From: Lysobacterales bacterium
Lineage (GTDB): Bacteria > Pseudomonadota > Gammaproteobacteria > Xanthomonadales > SZUA-36
NCBI GenBank assembly: GCA_021648125.1
Contig: JAKITK010000015.1
Location: 1-57,182 of the forward strand
Length of the DNA: 57,182 nt
Reading direction: 5' to 3'
Each line of letters opens with the position of its first letter. Position 1 is the stretch's first letter. The notes beneath the pieces are model-generated. The model saw only the letters and a program-made list of their open reading frames with translations. It was not told the DNA's origin and did not search any database. Of this stretch, positions 6,293-21,864 are shown one piece after another. The translations under genes and the position numbers were made by a program.

Positions 6293-6320
6293 GTAGAGTG
6301 GGCATAAATGCCCACCCTAC
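6293..6320. repeat. Near-perfect inverted repeat between convergent pgeF and parC
   Basis: The arms GTAGAGTGGGCAT and ATGCCCACCCTAC pair over 13 bp with one mismatch around a 2-base loop. The arms share their core (GTAGGGTGGGCAT) with the ends of the two 97-bp repeats at 8613 and 18191, so this is probably a minimal member of that repeat family. Lying between convergent genes, it could serve as a two-way terminator, although there is no clear T run. Confidence 0.7.
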
Positions 6321-8612: not shown

Positions 8613-8709
8613 CTATATTATCAAATCCCCAATCCTAAGGTGGGCATTTATGTACAGGATGTACGGTATGTCGCGGGCGCATGGATGCGCAAGAGCGACC
8701 ATGCCCACG
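8613..8709. repeat. 97-bp structured repeat, copy 1
   Basis: This unit matches 18191-18287 at 95 of 97 positions. Inside, nested inverted repeats fold back: outer GGTGGGCAT with ATGCCCAC, middle GTCGC with GCGAC, and an inner GCGCAT-GG-ATGCGC hairpin, giving one long cruciform-like structure. Its left 22 bases (CTATATTATC...) are conserved but lie outside the hairpin. It sits in the divergent gap between parC and the TraB-like gene, where I see no other feature. It looks like a REP or MITE-type element moved by a transposase encoded elsewhere. Confidence 0.8.
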
Positions 8710-18190: not shown

Positions 18191-18287
18191 CTATATTATC
18201 AAATCCCCAATCGTAGGGTGGGCATTTATGTACAGGATGTACGGTATGTCGCGGGCGCATGGATGCGCAAGAGCGACCATGCCCACG
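18191..18287. repeat. 97-bp structured repeat, copy 2
   Basis: This is the second copy of the element at 8613, differing at 2 of 97 positions, both near the left hairpin arm (CGTAGGG here, CCTAAGG there). Here the outer arm reads GTAGGGTGGGCAT, identical to the core of the short inverted repeat at 6293. It again sits in a divergent gap (selO and the NRAMP-like gene), in the same orientation, ending about 24 bp before the NRAMP start, where its hairpin could affect the operon's promoter or leader. Confidence 0.8.
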
Positions 18288-18310: not shown

Positions 18311-19510
18311 ATGATATTTAAGAAACTCTCAATCGGGCCCGCTGTACTGGTCGCCGCTGCCTTTATCGGTCCCGGAACAGTCACCACCGCAACTCTTGCC
18401 GGTGCTAACTTTGGCTATGCCCTGATCTGGGCACTGGTTTTCTCAGTGGCAGCCTGCATTGTGTTGCAGGAGATGGCAGCTAGGCTTGGTGTTGTAGCCC
18501 AACAGGGTTTGGGTGAGACCTTGCGCGAGGTTTTGGTGCAGCCGCTGATTCGTTACAGCGTGTTTGTATTGGTTACTGTGGCGATATTTATTGGTAACAG
18601 CGCCTATCAGGGCGGCAACATTGCCGGCGCGAGTTTGGGCCTGGATGCCTTGTTTCCAAAATTACCCATCGCCTGGCCGCTGTTAATTTCATTACTAACT
18701 TTCAGCGCGTTGATAACAGGAAGTTACAAATTACTCGAAAAAGCCCTGCTGGGACTGGTTTTTTTGATGAGCCTGGCTTTTTTCACAACTTTTGTGCTTA
18801 CAAAACCAGATATGGCAGCTTTGTTTTCCGGGGTGATGCCTTCCTTGCCGGATGGTGCAATACTCACCGTCATCGCGTTAATAGGTACTACGGTGGTTCC
18901 TTATAACCTGTTTCTGCATGCTTCCTTTGTCAGCAATCGTTGGAGTTCTCCTGAGGACCTCCCTAAAGTACGCAAAGATATTTATTTTTCGATCGGCTTG
19001 GGCGGCTTGCTTTCCATTGCGGTTATTTCAACCGCTGCGGCGGCGTTTTTTAATACCCAAATCTCCATCCAGTCGGCGGCTGATATGTCGGTACAGCTAG
19101 AGCCTTTGCTAGGTTCATGGGCGCGGATCAGTATGGGTGTGGGTTTGTTTGCTGCAGGCATTTCATCGGCAGTTACCGCACCATTAGCAGCCGCGTATGC
19201 TATCACCGGTATTCTCGGCTGGTCTAGTGACCTTAAATCTAGGCGCTTCAGAATGATTTGGTTGATTGTCCTACTCATTGGGCTAGTGCTCGCAAGTTCT
19301 GGCTATCGACCGCTTACGATTATCTGGTTTGCACAAATTGCCAACGGTATTTTATTGCCGCTGATGGCAGGGTTTTTGCTTTATGTAATGAACCAGTCGG
19401 AAATATTGGGTCGTTACAAAAACACTTTGATGCATAACCTGCTAGGTCTGGCGGTTATTCTGGTGACTCTAGTTTTAAGCGCCAAATCACTCTGGTCTGC
19501 CTTTTCATGA
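18311..19510 (+). CDS. NRAMP-fold transporter lacking metal-site motifs
   Basis: This 399-residue protein has about eleven hydrophobic helices and clear NRAMP-family lines: FIGPGTVTTATLAGANFGYA in helix 1 and GTTVVPYNLFLHASF in helix 6. The metal-binding DPGN of helix 1 is absent and the helix 6 MPHN is VPYN, so the residues that coordinate Mn2+/Fe2+ in true NRAMPs are missing. B. subtilis YcsG, beside the ycsF-kipI-kipA genes, is of this type. Its stop overlaps the pxpA start (ATGA), making it the first gene of the 5-oxoprolinase operon. My inference is that it imports 5-oxoproline or a related amino acid rather than metal. Confidence 0.85.
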   Translation: MIFKKLSIGPAVLVAAAFIGPGTVTTATLAGANFGYALIWALVFSVAACIVLQEMAARLGVVAQQGLGETLREVLVQPLIRYSVFVLVTVAIFIGNSAYQGGNIAGASLGLDALFPKLPIAWPLLISLLTFSALITGSYKLLEKALLGLVFLMSLAFFTTFVLTKPDMAALFSGVMPSLPDGAILTVIALIGTTVVPYNLFLHASFVSNRWSSPEDLPKVRKDIYFSIGLGGLLSIAVISTAAAAFFNTQISIQSAADMSVQLEPLLGSWARISMGVGLFAAGISSAVTAPLAAAYAITGILGWSSDLKSRRFRMIWLIVLLIGLVLASSGYRPLTIIWFAQIANGILLPLMAGFLLYVMNQSEILGRYKNTLMHNLLGLAVILVTLVLSAKSLWSAFS

Positions 19511-20289
19511 ACACGGCAATCAAGTATCAGATAGATATCAATTGTGATTTAGGTGAGGGCATTGAAACCGCTTCAGTCAGCAATGATGAGGCTATCATGC
19601 CGTTTATCAGTTCCTGCAATATCGCCTGTGGTTTTCATGCGGGTAGCCCTGAGTTAATGCGTCATTCCGTAGATCTTGCAATGCAACATGCTGTAGCGAT
19701 CGGGGCGCATCCTTCCTACAACGATCGGGAGAATTTTGGTCGTAAATACTTAAATATTTCAAAAGCTCAGCTACAAGATGAGTTGTGTTTTCAAATTCAT
19801 CAGTTGCAGGGCATTGTGGAGCAAGCAGGGGCTGTACTTCATCATGTAAAACCGCATGGGGCTTTATATAATGCCGCCGCTGTAGACCTTGAACTGGCAA
19901 ACTGTATAGCGACAAGCATTGCTTTGGTTGATAAAAACTTAATTTTTTACGGCTTGGCAAATTCTAAAATGGCGGTGGCAGCCAGACAGCATAATTTAGC
20001 TTTTGCGCATGAAGCTTTTATCGACAGAGCCTATCAGGCCAACGGGCAATTACTGCCTCGATCTGAACCCAGTGCCGTCATTACCGATCCTGCAGTGGTG
20101 TTGCCAAGGGCATTACAAATAATCACCCGCGCATCGGTTATCAGTGTTGATGGCGCGGAGATAAGCCTGGATTGCGATACTTTATGCTTGCACGGTGATA
20201 GCCCGGGGACTACTAAAGTTGCGCAAATGCTTGCCGAGTTTTTAACGGAAAATCAGGTCGATATTAAAGCCGTGGCTTTTCGTGAGTGA
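19507..20289 (+). CDS. pxpA: 5-oxoprolinase subunit A (PxpA, LamB/YcsF family)
   Basis: PxpA works with PxpB and PxpC to open 5-oxo-L-proline to L-glutamate using ATP, clearing a spontaneous cyclisation product of glutamine and glutamate. The 260-residue product shows the family opening DINCDLGEGI, then ISSCNIACGFHAGSPELM, GAHPSYNDRENFGRK, VKPHGALYN and a final LHGDSPGTTKVAQ. Its ATG overlaps the transporter stop by 4 bp and its end overlaps pxpB by 8 bp, so all four genes form one operon. Confidence 0.96.
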   Translation: MNTAIKYQIDINCDLGEGIETASVSNDEAIMPFISSCNIACGFHAGSPELMRHSVDLAMQHAVAIGAHPSYNDRENFGRKYLNISKAQLQDELCFQIHQLQGIVEQAGAVLHHVKPHGALYNAAAVDLELANCIATSIALVDKNLIFYGLANSKMAVAARQHNLAFAHEAFIDRAYQANGQLLPRSEPSAVITDPAVVLPRALQIITRASVISVDGAEISLDCDTLCLHGDSPGTTKVAQMLAEFLTENQVDIKAVAFRE

Positions 20290-20992
20290 ATCTTTGGCAA
20301 CTGTTGAGATTGATGCTTTCAGACAAAATGGCGATTGTTCCATTCTGATTGATTTTGCCGCTGCTGATGAGAACAAACTACTGCGCCATATTCATTGTTT
20401 TGCAAATCAGATAAGGCAAACTGGGTTTTATTCTGTAGTTAATGTGATTCCAGCTAAAACCACACTAATGCTGGCTTTTTCGACACCGATCGATTCGTGG
20501 TCTGAACTACAGGATAAATTACTAAATATCAATTCTAGCCTCGAATACAAGAATCAGAGCGTGAATACTCATAGTATCCCGATTTGCTATCACCCCGAAA
20601 TTGCTACTGATCTGGAAACCGTGTTAAAACAAACCGGGCTTGATCTGGAGGGTTTAATTAAAATTCACAGCAGCAGAGAATATCTCGTCAGCATGCTCGG
20701 GTTTCTACCCGGATTTATGTATCTGGATGAGTTGGATCAACAGCTGCTTTTAGCCCGGAAAACCACACCTGCGATACGCTTGCCTGCGGGCAGTGTCGCA
20801 ATTTCCGGAAATCAGTGTGGTTTGTATTCAGTCTCGAGTCCGGGTGGTTGGCATGTCATTGCACGAACCCCACAGCAACTCGTTGATTGGAACAATGATA
20901 GGCCTATGTGCATCAGCGCACTGGATAAAATTCGCTTCAAGCCCATTAGTCTAGATGAGTTCAGGCACCTAGAGCAGGCGGGTGCTTCGTGA
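20282..20992 (+). CDS. pxpB: 5-oxoprolinase subunit B (PxpB, KipI family)
   Basis: The 236-residue product is the KipI-like subunit of the PxpABC complex. Family lines include IPICYHPEIATDLE, the cyclophilin-like core MLGFLPGFMYL, and RLPAGSVAISGNQCGLYSVS followed by PGGWHVIARTP. Its B. subtilis homologue KipI also inhibits the sporulation kinase KinA, a role not expected here. Translation starts at a GTG overlapping the pxpA stop by 8 bp, and the stop overlaps the GTG of pxpC by 4 bp. Confidence 0.95.
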   Translation: MSESLATVEIDAFRQNGDCSILIDFAAADENKLLRHIHCFANQIRQTGFYSVVNVIPAKTTLMLAFSTPIDSWSELQDKLLNINSSLEYKNQSVNTHSIPICYHPEIATDLETVLKQTGLDLEGLIKIHSSREYLVSMLGFLPGFMYLDELDQQLLLARKTTPAIRLPAGSVAISGNQCGLYSVSSPGGWHVIARTPQQLVDWNNDRPMCISALDKIRFKPISLDEFRHLEQAGAS

Positions 20993-21864
20993 GCTTGAAG
21001 ATTATAAAGCCAGGGTTGTTTAGCACCTTTCAGGATTTGGGGCGGCCGGGTTTTGCGCATTTGGGAATTCCTGCATCCGGTGCCATGGACAGATCAGCGG
21101 CTAAACTTGCCAATCAGATGGTGGGGAATAAGCCACATGAAGCCGTGTTAGAAATAGCACTTACCGGGGTTAGTTTTCAGGTCTCAGAGACCTGCTCAAT
21201 AGCGATTTGCGGGGCGGAATTTGACTGCTTTGTAAATGATGAGCTTGTTAGTCAGGACCAAACCATCGATCTGGCTGTGGATGATGTTTTGCGTATGGGG
21301 CGTTTGCAAGCAGGTGCCAGAGCGTATCTGGCGGTTGCCGGAGGTTATCGGCTGGATAAAGTTTTGGGTAGTTACTCCACCCTTACATTAGCGAAATTGG
21401 GTGGCTTTCAGGGAAGAATTTTACAGAAAAATGATCAAATCGGGCTTCGACAAGCCCATATAACCCCACTGAAACACAAATACGCGTGGCAAAAACTTAG
21501 CCGCAGTCAACGGTATATCGTGCACGCTGTTCCGGGGCCTGAGTATGGCTGGTTCAATGCAAGGAGTCAGAAGTCGGCTTTTTCGCAAGCGTTTAAAGTC
21601 AGCCAACAAAGCGACCGCATGGGGTATCGCTTGCAGGCTGATATAATTACTGCAAGCAATAAAAGCACAATGCTCAGTACTGGGCTAATGCCCGGTAGTC
21701 TACAAATCACCCCGGACGGGCAAAGCATTCTCGCCATGCGCGATGCCCAGACAAGCGGTGGTTATCCACGAATTCTGGTCGTCGATCAGCATGATTTATC
21801 GGTGTTGGCACAGGCTAAACCGGGTGATGAAGTGTGTTTCTTCCGGGTAGATCAAGTCTGTTAG
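20989..21864 (+). CDS. pxpC: 5-oxoprolinase subunit C (PxpC, KipA family)
   Basis: This 291-residue protein is the third 5-oxoprolinase subunit, from the biotin-dependent carboxyltransferase-like family. It has the signature LKIIKPGLFSTFQDLGRPGF, then IPASGAMDRSAAKLANQMVG, RAYLAVAGGY, VHAVPGPEYGWF, SDRMGYRLQ and DAQTSGGYPRI. The start is a GTG within GTGA shared with the pxpB stop. The operon seems to end here: the next gene begins 153 bp later with its own ribosome binding site and an unrelated product. Confidence 0.95.
   Translation: MSLKIIKPGLFSTFQDLGRPGFAHLGIPASGAMDRSAAKLANQMVGNKPHEAVLEIALTGVSFQVSETCSIAICGAEFDCFVNDELVSQDQTIDLAVDDVLRMGRLQAGARAYLAVAGGYRLDKVLGSYSTLTLAKLGGFQGRILQKNDQIGLRQAHITPLKHKYAWQKLSRSQRYIVHAVPGPEYGWFNARSQKSAFSQAFKVSQQSDRMGYRLQADIITASNKSTMLSTGLMPGSLQITPDGQSILAMRDAQTSGGYPRILVVDQHDLSVLAQAKPGDEVCFFRVDQVC

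Follow-up and report, generated by a model that had tools for sequence, protein, structure and literature searches.

Organization of the Operon

The window, by which we mean the whole stretch of 57,182 nucleotides analyzed here (contig JAKITK010000015.1 of the Lysobacterales bacterium assembly GCA_021648125.1, positions 1 to 57,182 of the forward strand), contains an operon in which a gene for an Nramp-related protein, called T in the following and proposed here to import 5-oxoproline, precedes the genes of the three 5-oxoprolinase subunits PxpA, PxpB and PxpC (Table 1). All four genes lie on the + strand in the order T-pxpA-pxpB-pxpC and form a tight cluster with successive overlaps of 4, 8 and 4 bp, which confirms the overlaps of 4-8 bp reported in a first-pass annotation of this DNA. 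The Pfam scores of the four proteins were far above the respective cut-offs (29.8 for PF01566 in the case of T). In NCBIfam, T matched Nramp_1 with 98.8 bits (cut-off 50) and the other three proteins received the names PxpA, PxpB and PxpC, with several of these matches being below the family cut-offs. Neither a second PF01566 gene nor a PF03746 match other than pxpA was found in the genome of the window, which is 96% complete.

Table 1. Genes and motifs of the operon, with positions in the window (TM, transmembrane helix).
Feature	Position	Strand	Matches and remarks
T, transporter gene (clade-1 Nramp-related, 399 aa; proposed 5-oxoproline importer)	18311..19510	+	PF01566 305 bits
pxpA, 5-oxoprolinase subunit A (LamB_YcsF)	19507..20289	+	PF03746 297 bits; NF003814 295 bits, cut-off 226
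pxpB, 5-oxoprolinase subunit B (CT_C_D), GTG start	20282..20992	+	PF02682 185 bits; TIGR00370 140.7 bits, slightly under cut-off 145.55
pxpC, 5-oxoprolinase subunit C (CT_A_B), GTG start	20989..21864	+	PF02626 280 bits; TIGR00724 269 bits, cut-off 230.2; NF045499 PxpC 245 bits, under cut-off 500
T/pxpA overlap, 4 bp	19507..19510	+	
TM1 break, residues 20-23 GPGT (canonical Nramps: DPGN)	18368..18379	+	model helices 11-18 and 21-34
TM3 Y99-Q100-G-G-N103; E at 100 in most of clade	18605..18619	+	alignment of 101
TM6 break, V196-P197-Y198 (canonical Nramps: MPH)	18896..18904	+	model helices 184-195 and 198-210

Fold and Metal-Site Residues of T

In an AlphaFold2 model built from T and 29 relatives (pLDDT 91.1, pTM 0.90), the helix breaks of TM1 and TM6 coincide with the two motifs given in Table 1. 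The solved structure closest to this model was DraNramp (6d91; Z 49.7, root-mean-square deviation 2.5 over 384 residues), followed by EleNRMT (7qia, Z 45.9) and BfraNramp (Z 45), and other LeuT-fold carriers, many of them for amino acids, gave Z values of 26-30; as modeled, T is a protein of the Nramp/LeuT fold. Although this fold is common to T and the canonical Nramp/MntH proteins (DraNramp 6d91, 8e60), T is only 23-24% identical to them, is encoded in an operon, and carries other residues at the metal site. In profile alignments with DraNramp and BfraNramp, D, N, M and H correspond to G20, T23, V196 and Y198, respectively, and the alanine that serves as a backbone ligand corresponds to T193. 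T thus lacks both DPGN and MPH, the residues by which canonical Nramp/SLC11 proteins are recognized. The first-pass annotation had described the metal ligands as gone, and their absence is borne out by these alignments; we do not, however, speak of a loss in the clade of T (clade 1, see below), because this branch may be older than the canonical metal site (PMC12873925).

Among 161 Nramp-superfamily sequences, including that of the window, 101 were at least 38% identical to T and represent clade 1 in this comparison. TM1 reads GPGT in 100 of them and GPGS in one, and V196 and Y198 are kept in all 101, whereas M and H are found in all 19 sequences of the canonical set, which was chosen by DPGN and therefore contains D and N by definition. 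The 80 named loci from GTDB genomes (the best 80 of 583) had been found with patterns holding parts of the TM1 and TM6 motifs and are hence motif-biased. A motif-independent check, in which members were found by whole-protein similarity, gave GPGT in all seven other Pseudomonadota members and in 62 of 63 members of a Bacteroidota sample (GPGS in the remaining one; two of the 63 are also among the 80 named loci), and V196 and Y198 were kept throughout these 70 proteins. At residue 100 in TM3, E occurs in 76, Q in 24 and A in one of the 101 relatives, while N103 is invariant. The window protein has Q at this position (18608-18610), as is common among its gammaproteobacterial kin. The D and E of the proton pathway in TM3 of DraNramp face Q100/N103 or are shifted, the profile alignment being gapped in TM3. 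Conserved polar positions are N103 (TM3), Y198 (TM6), S286 (TM8) and Q342/N345 (TM10). An argument for a coupling ion based on a Na2 site was dropped, because the TM8 serines occur in canonical Nramps too.

T Belongs to a Clade Separate from YcsG and PxpT

In an unrooted superfamily tree of 78 sequences, T was placed in clade 1 (36 sequences, support 100/100). It lay outside the canonical Nramps (10 sequences, 100/100), outside the NRMT-like proteins (7 sequences, 99/94; sorted by the DAGG motif of the EleNRMT type, EleNRMT itself being no row of the tree) and outside clade 2, the YcsG/PxpT/MumT type (10 sequences, 100/100; TM1 GPGF, TM6 GG[TA]VGGY). The NRMT Mg2+ transporters have the fold and the absence of the canonical site in common with T, but their DAGG sequences form a clade of their own. 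Clade 1 grouped with the canonical Nramps, the NRMT-like proteins and four other sequences (97/92), while clade 2 lay outside this grouping of the unrooted tree, and uniting clades 1 and 2 in a single clade was rejected with borderline significance by the approximately unbiased test (p 0.039). When an even sample of 299 Pseudomonadota genomes was searched, eight genomes, including that of the window, had a match to T at 44-100% identity, and the next match was at 31%; in the Bacteroidota sample the identity of the 63 members to T extended down to 34%.

Our analysis therefore places T apart from the proteins with which it would most readily be compared. Like T, the members of clade 2 (PxpT of C. 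glutamicum, YcsG of B. subtilis, MumT of A. baumannii and PxpG of C. difficile) match PF01566, have the LeuT fold, are encoded in pxp-type operons, bear a metal-transporter label, and lack the canonical metal ligands in the sequences compared (GPGF/GGTVGGY); they differ by belonging to the other clade. Eight of the ten clade-2 sequences were 23-27% identical to T over 324-408 aligned residues and the other two matched partially, whereas YcsG (PDB 9a52_A) was 20-21% identical to T and 63% identical to a clade-2 member (L142) over 388 columns. In a phmmer search against PDB sequences YcsG was not listed, and 9a52 appeared in the structure library only; the clade-2 structure model was built on four sequences and had a pLDDT of 74.4. 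The similar protein beside the pxp homologs of B. subtilis, to which the first-pass annotation had pointed, is thus similar to T at the level of the superfamily, but orthology of T with YcsG or PxpT was rejected on account of the separate clades and the low identity to YcsG. PxpT is 50% identical to YcsG, itself close to L142, and is therefore expected to be a member of clade 2, to which PxpG (46% identical to PxpT) is likely to belong as well; the A. baumannii record L196 is presumably MumT, judged by species and operon. No clade-2 match was obtained from 246 Actinomycetota genomes in a search meant for PxpT of C. glutamicum, and a porin family likewise gave no match in these genomes.

Clade 2 was first noticed through three Nramp matches adjoining pxpA matches in the Pseudomonadota sample. 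Its rows include, besides L196, a Proteus mirabilis record, Rhizobium, Klebsiella and Lactiplantibacillus plasmids, and a Bacillus badius plasmid whose gene order (pxpA, NRAMP, hydro-lyase) is that of B. subtilis pxpA-ycsG-ycsI, with ycsI taken by us to be of the hydro-lyase family. The query of this clade also matched 93 Klebsiella plasmid records, and in the one stretch read (L193) the gene stands with pxpA, a hydro-lyase gene, a urea-amidolyase-type gene and a biotin carboxylase gene.

Clade 1, in turn, probably corresponds to the Slc11 'orphan' outgroup of Cellier, judging from its residues and tree position. Outgroups within PF01566 that have no metal site have been described, and helices 3 and 6 of the orphan one carry Y-N and V-Y, respectively (PMC9606685, PMC10606218), which we recognize in T as Y99/N103 and V196/Y198, the match to Cellier's numbering being our own reading. 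The outgroup, termed 'Nramp-related' in PMC12873925 and described there as paraphyletic to canonical Nramps, likewise groups with Slc11 and NRMT-like proteins. A conserved TM3 glutamate has been described for it, which agrees with the prevalence of E100 in clade 1, while the window member differs in having Q100.

Clade-1 Genes Accompany Lactam-Opening Enzymes

When genes within 1.5 kb were considered as neighbors, 66 of 102 clade-1 genes were linked to pxpABC or to Hyu genes, which encode enzymes of the hydantoinase/oxoprolinase family (PMC8453981); this count omits six haloarchaeal genes and scores one member (L045) as unlinked although its pxpABC genes lie 2.4 kb downstream. For these counts clade 1 was delimited by identity, and the canonical, NRMT-like and clade-2 sets by TM1 motif. 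In contrast, no such neighbor was present for canonical Nramps (0/19) or NRMT-like proteins (0/7), and the single case among 24 other PF01566 genes (L191) is actually a frame-broken clade-1 copy. This broken gene, which comes from a genome of the Actinomycetota sample, is convergent to pxpB and pxpC. In clade 2, nine of ten genes had a pxp neighbor, in a biased set of which four were found through pxpA.

In 50 of the 80 named loci, pxpA and pxpB lay downstream of T in the same orientation (with pxpC too in 49), and T and pxpA overlapped or were at most 60 bp apart in 47 of the 49 loci measured. The stretch examined held no pxp gene in the other 30, but in four of these (L050, L064, L071 and L102) T was directly adjoined by a fused Hydantoinase_A/B enzyme; such fused enzymes linked to T are single chains of 1205-1252 aa. 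The distribution differed between phyla, with 42 pxp-linked, two fused-linked and two unlinked loci in Bacteroidota, six, two and 23 in Pseudomonadota, and two pxp-linked and one unlinked in other phyla. In the even samples, two of the eight Pseudomonadota members were linked to pxp genes and one (L112) to a fused enzyme gene overlapping T by 4 bp, and the 63 Bacteroidota members comprised 31 with pxp and 11 with Hyu genes on the same strand and one with Hyu genes on the opposite strand. The first-pass annotation had made its proposal dependent on the subfamily not lying mostly away from pxp genes; the named loci are in line with this expectation, but the even samples are so only in part, with a pxp link in a quarter of the Pseudomonadota members and in just under half of the Bacteroidota members.

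Linkage to split HyuA and HyuB genes extends the pattern to further lineages. The order T-HyuA-HyuB was found in five of six Actinomycetota members, the sixth (G495) being without HyuA in the 2.6 kb that remain before the contig end; these six exclude the genome from which L045 originates (G328) and the broken copy L191, and they were found with a clade-2 query, so that the yield of clade-1 genes may be incomplete. Plasmids gave 24 matches at 44-52% identity, 23 haloarchaeal and one from Pseudoalteromonas, of which 12 and one, respectively, were examined. HyuA directly follows T in 11 of the 12 haloarchaeal stretches, with Natrononativus as the exception, while the clade-1 genes of the Pseudoalteromonas plasmid and of a Qipengyuania plasmid are unlinked. 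The company of clade 1 with 5-oxoprolinases, though not universal, thus reaches beyond one lineage and repeatedly involves ATP-dependent enzymes that open lactams and belong to two unrelated types.

Exchange of the Partner Enzyme

Three tests went further than gene neighborhood. Of the 30 named loci that have no pxp gene nearby, 29 had genomes that could be searched (L073 excluded), and PxpA was present in 25 of these; the remaining four are exactly those with a linked fused enzyme. Likewise, PxpA was found in seven of the eight clade-1 genomes of the Pseudomonadota sample, compared to 85 of 291 others (p 0.001), and the eighth has a linked fused enzyme. Overall, a PxpA match was lacking wherever a fused enzyme is linked to T (five of five genomes) and present in all 32 clade-1 genomes that have no Hyu link (Actinomycetota being outside this count; Fisher p 2e-6), in tests that ignore kinship.

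In a HyuB tree, the 20 sequences with an observed link to T (five fused, five actinomycete and ten haloarchaeal) formed one clade (98/96) together with L202 from G495, whose linkage is hidden by the contig end. All 21 unlinked HyuB paralogs, which come from clade-1-holding genomes, lay outside this clade, the nearest being L218 of a SAR324 genome. On the transporter tree the type of linked enzyme (pxp or Hyu) requires at least three changes when unlinked rows are ignored. The carrier stays while its partner enzyme is swapped for one of an unrelated type, which points to a shared substrate.

Proposed Function of T

Genome context and the absent metal site argue that T probably imports 5-oxoproline for PxpABC; from them we infer both the cargo and the inward direction. 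T would act as a secondary carrier with the Nramp/LeuT fold for the uptake of 5-oxoproline (pyroglutamate). Its gene shares an operon with those of PxpABC, the ATP-dependent 5-oxoprolinase that opens the lactam to yield glutamate. LeuT-fold amino-acid carriers bind the carboxylate of their substrate at the broken helix ends. In T, where the TM1 aspartate is missing, the broken ends of TM1 (GPGT) and TM6 (TTVVPY) may hold the substrate carboxylate via backbone amides and the hydroxyls of T23, T193 and T194, with N103, Y198, S286 and Q342/N345 as candidate polar contacts for the lactam.

An Nramp-related importer of 5-oxoproline hidden under a metal-transporter label, as suggested by the first-pass annotation, is supported by our data, but the idea is already in print for clade 2. 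In C. glutamicum, deletion of pxpT, a gene of the NRAMP family, abolishes growth on 5-oxoproline and pxpT complements the defect (PMC13274462, 2026). The same paper cites B. subtilis ycsG as needed for the same purpose, and its authors 'cannot exclude' metal transport by PxpT. YcsG, in turn, is reported to import Mn2+ in a paper that gives it the name MntG and regards the older ycsG result as possibly polar (PMC10448178). Import of Mn has also been reported for MumT, whose operon was interpreted as one of urea metabolism (PMC5050338). By comparison with an annotated Klebsiella operon, we read the genes of the mumT operon as NRAMP, PxpA, hydro-lyase, PxpB/C-type and biotin carboxylase. The TRAP-type (tripartite ATP-independent periplasmic) proteins DctP6 and DctP7 of Bordetella, cited in PMC13274462, have the same proposed cargo and genes near a eukaryotic-type 5-oxoprolinase, but represent a transporter type unrelated to T.

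Several observations weigh against the import of 5-oxoproline. A considerable part of its members have neither pxp nor Hyu neighbors (five of eight in the Pseudomonadota sample, 20 of 63 in the Bacteroidota sample and 26 of the 80 named loci). Six unlinked loci of the Bacteroidota sample (L266-L271) have a thiamine pyrophosphate (TPP)-enzyme gene directly upstream of T and no adjoining oxoprolinase, and similarity to L269, the locus compared with Pfam, indicates a POR_N partner in five of them as well; we take these TPP and POR_N genes to be KorAB-like 2-oxoacid oxidoreductase genes. This subgroup, with VTYN or VAYN in TM6 and 39-42% identity to the window protein, may have a different cargo. 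In another unlinked locus (L262) a gamma-glutamyltranspeptidase gene lies downstream and a DUF2891 gene overlaps upstream, a single case that would fit glutathione-derived 5-oxoproline. In two Marinicella loci (L033 6606-7967 and L035 6621-7982), one of which was run against Pfam, an mgtE-type Mg2+ transporter gene ends where the longest open reading frame of T begins. The complementarity is weakened by four of the five fused-enzyme genomes that have no PxpA being metagenome-assembled and possibly incomplete, and by the occurrence of PxpA in Actinomycetota, where four of the five genomes that have linked split HyuAB contain it (as does the unlinked sixth). Moreover, fused HyuA-HyuB enzymes can be hydantoinases, so that the fused architecture was not accepted as proof of a 5-oxoprolinase, because a fused N-methylhydantoinase exists (PDB 7hk5). 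Six of the 12 haloarchaeal stretches contain a gene of the Asp/Glu/hydantoin racemase family in the operon, with the copy of L130 matching both Amdase and Asp/Glu/hydantoin racemase, and a seventh has a maleate isomerase gene. Since not all fused Hyu enzymes are 5-oxoprolinases and racemase-family genes occur in the operons, hydantoins are possible substrates in the haloarchaeal branch.

These points lead to a broader specificity as the most serious alternative, in which T would accept cyclic amides or acidic lactams more generally (hydantoins, compounds of the 2-pyrrolidone type or 5-oxo-D-proline), with 5-oxoproline being the cargo only of PxpABC-linked members. It would be in line with the membership of the linked HyuAB in a family that includes hydantoinases and caprolactamase, with the haloarchaeal racemase-family genes, and with the retention of PxpA in most of the Actinomycetota genomes that have linked HyuAB. 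We nevertheless consider it unlikely, as the window member is paired with PxpABC, an enzyme named for 5-oxoproline, and the linked Hyu proteins cluster in a single clade with the fused enzymes of genomes in which no PxpA was found. Still less probable is that T imports a divalent metal, Mn2+ or Mg2+, to supply metal-dependent oxoprolinases. YcsG and MumT are both Nramp relatives in pxp-type operons, and YcsG overproduction raises cellular Mn (PMC10448178) while A. baumannii contains less Mn when mumT is deleted (PMC5050338); however, YcsG belongs to the other clade, as does MumT judged by L196, so that these data were not accepted as direct evidence on the clade of the window, and no report of Mn transport for clade 1 was found in the accessible literature. 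EleNRMT carries Mg2+ although it has neither DPGN nor MPH (PMC12873925), so that missing motifs are compatible with metal transport, and an Nramp-outgroup protein of Acidobacterium capsulatum, of unassigned clade here, has been read as mainly a Mn transporter (PMC4072509). The same paper describes MgtE-like fragments beside Nramp-outgroup genes, comparable to the MgtE neighbors in Marinicella. Against a metal cargo stand the absence of D, N, M and H altogether from clade 1, the 5-oxoproline phenotype of the pxpT deletion, and the switching between two unrelated oxoprolinase types, which would be unexpected for a metal importer. Finally, T might serve as a valve for overflow or osmolytes by exporting 5-oxoproline or glutamate, since sequence does not reveal direction and some methanotrophs use 5-oxoproline as a compatible solute (PMC13274462); import is favored by the clustering of T with an enzyme that consumes 5-oxoproline and, from the distant clade, by the growth defect of the pxpT deletion, which make export very improbable.

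Implications for the Nramp Superfamily

If import of 5-oxoproline is extended from T to its clade, the 'orphan' Nramp outgroup would be a widespread carrier family for 5-oxoproline or similar cyclic amides in bacteria and haloarchaea, which is paired interchangeably with PxpABC, a fused oxoprolinase, or one branch of HyuAB, and which, with the YcsG/PxpT/MumT clade, would make two metal-site-less lineages serving the same pathway. We regard the chances of this wider proposal as evenly balanced. If it is true, metal importers of the Nramp fold sit beside organic-solute carriers in the family tree, and a direct transport test is merited for YcsG and MumT, which have been read as importers of Mn. 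While the idea of an Nramp-related 5-oxoproline importer was known for clade 2 (PxpT, YcsG), our analysis adds a further clade distinct from it, shows that members of this clade in both bacteria and archaea are linked to lactam-opening enzymes, which occur in three forms, and offers a candidate substrate for non-metal proteins closely related to Nramps. Among the papers listed in our literature searches, no publication was found that links an Nramp relative to OPLAH/HyuAB or assigns a substrate to the orphan group.

The family is annotated as 'Nramp family divalent metal transporter' (NF037982, above cut-off), also in the plasmid records. This label hides a common route of glutamate salvage from 5-oxoproline and inflates predictions of metal uptake; it would imply an MntH in the genome of the window, where none was found. 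The results also frame a conflict in print between YcsG/MntG and MumT as Mn importers and PxpT/YcsG as 5-oxoproline importers, and a substrate for non-metal Nramp relatives bears on the origin of metal selectivity in a fold held in common with amino-acid carriers. The clade-2 genes L142, L143, L144 and L192-L197 illustrate this conflict, being Nramp relatives in pxp operons that have no canonical ligands (GPGF, GGTVGGY), yet YcsG and MumT have been published as Mn importers.

Other Features of the Window and of the Plasmid Records

Upstream of the operon lies selO on the opposite strand, and downstream follows a gene with only a sub-cut-off match to an Ig-like family in Pfam. An inverted repeat was sought upstream of the operon and none was found; promoter-like sites were fewer than in shuffled sequences and terminator-like sites about equal to them. 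The sequence GGGTGGGCATTTATG occurs in the window in three copies with 0-1 mismatches (6303-6317, 8638-8652 and 18216-18230), the last of them just upstream of the operon. With up to three mismatches allowed there were eight matches compared to 2.3 expected, and GGGTGGGCATTTATG is perhaps an interspersed repeat.

Among the plasmid records, NZ_CP064203.1 and NZ_OL790811.1 are of chromosome size (about 4 Mb) and yet are filed as plasmids in PLSDB. A Neorhizobium plasmid (L141, 5013-6197) encodes a further Nramp relative that has no canonical metal site (GPGN, GTNFSINA), located after a gene of the dihydrodipicolinate-synthase family.

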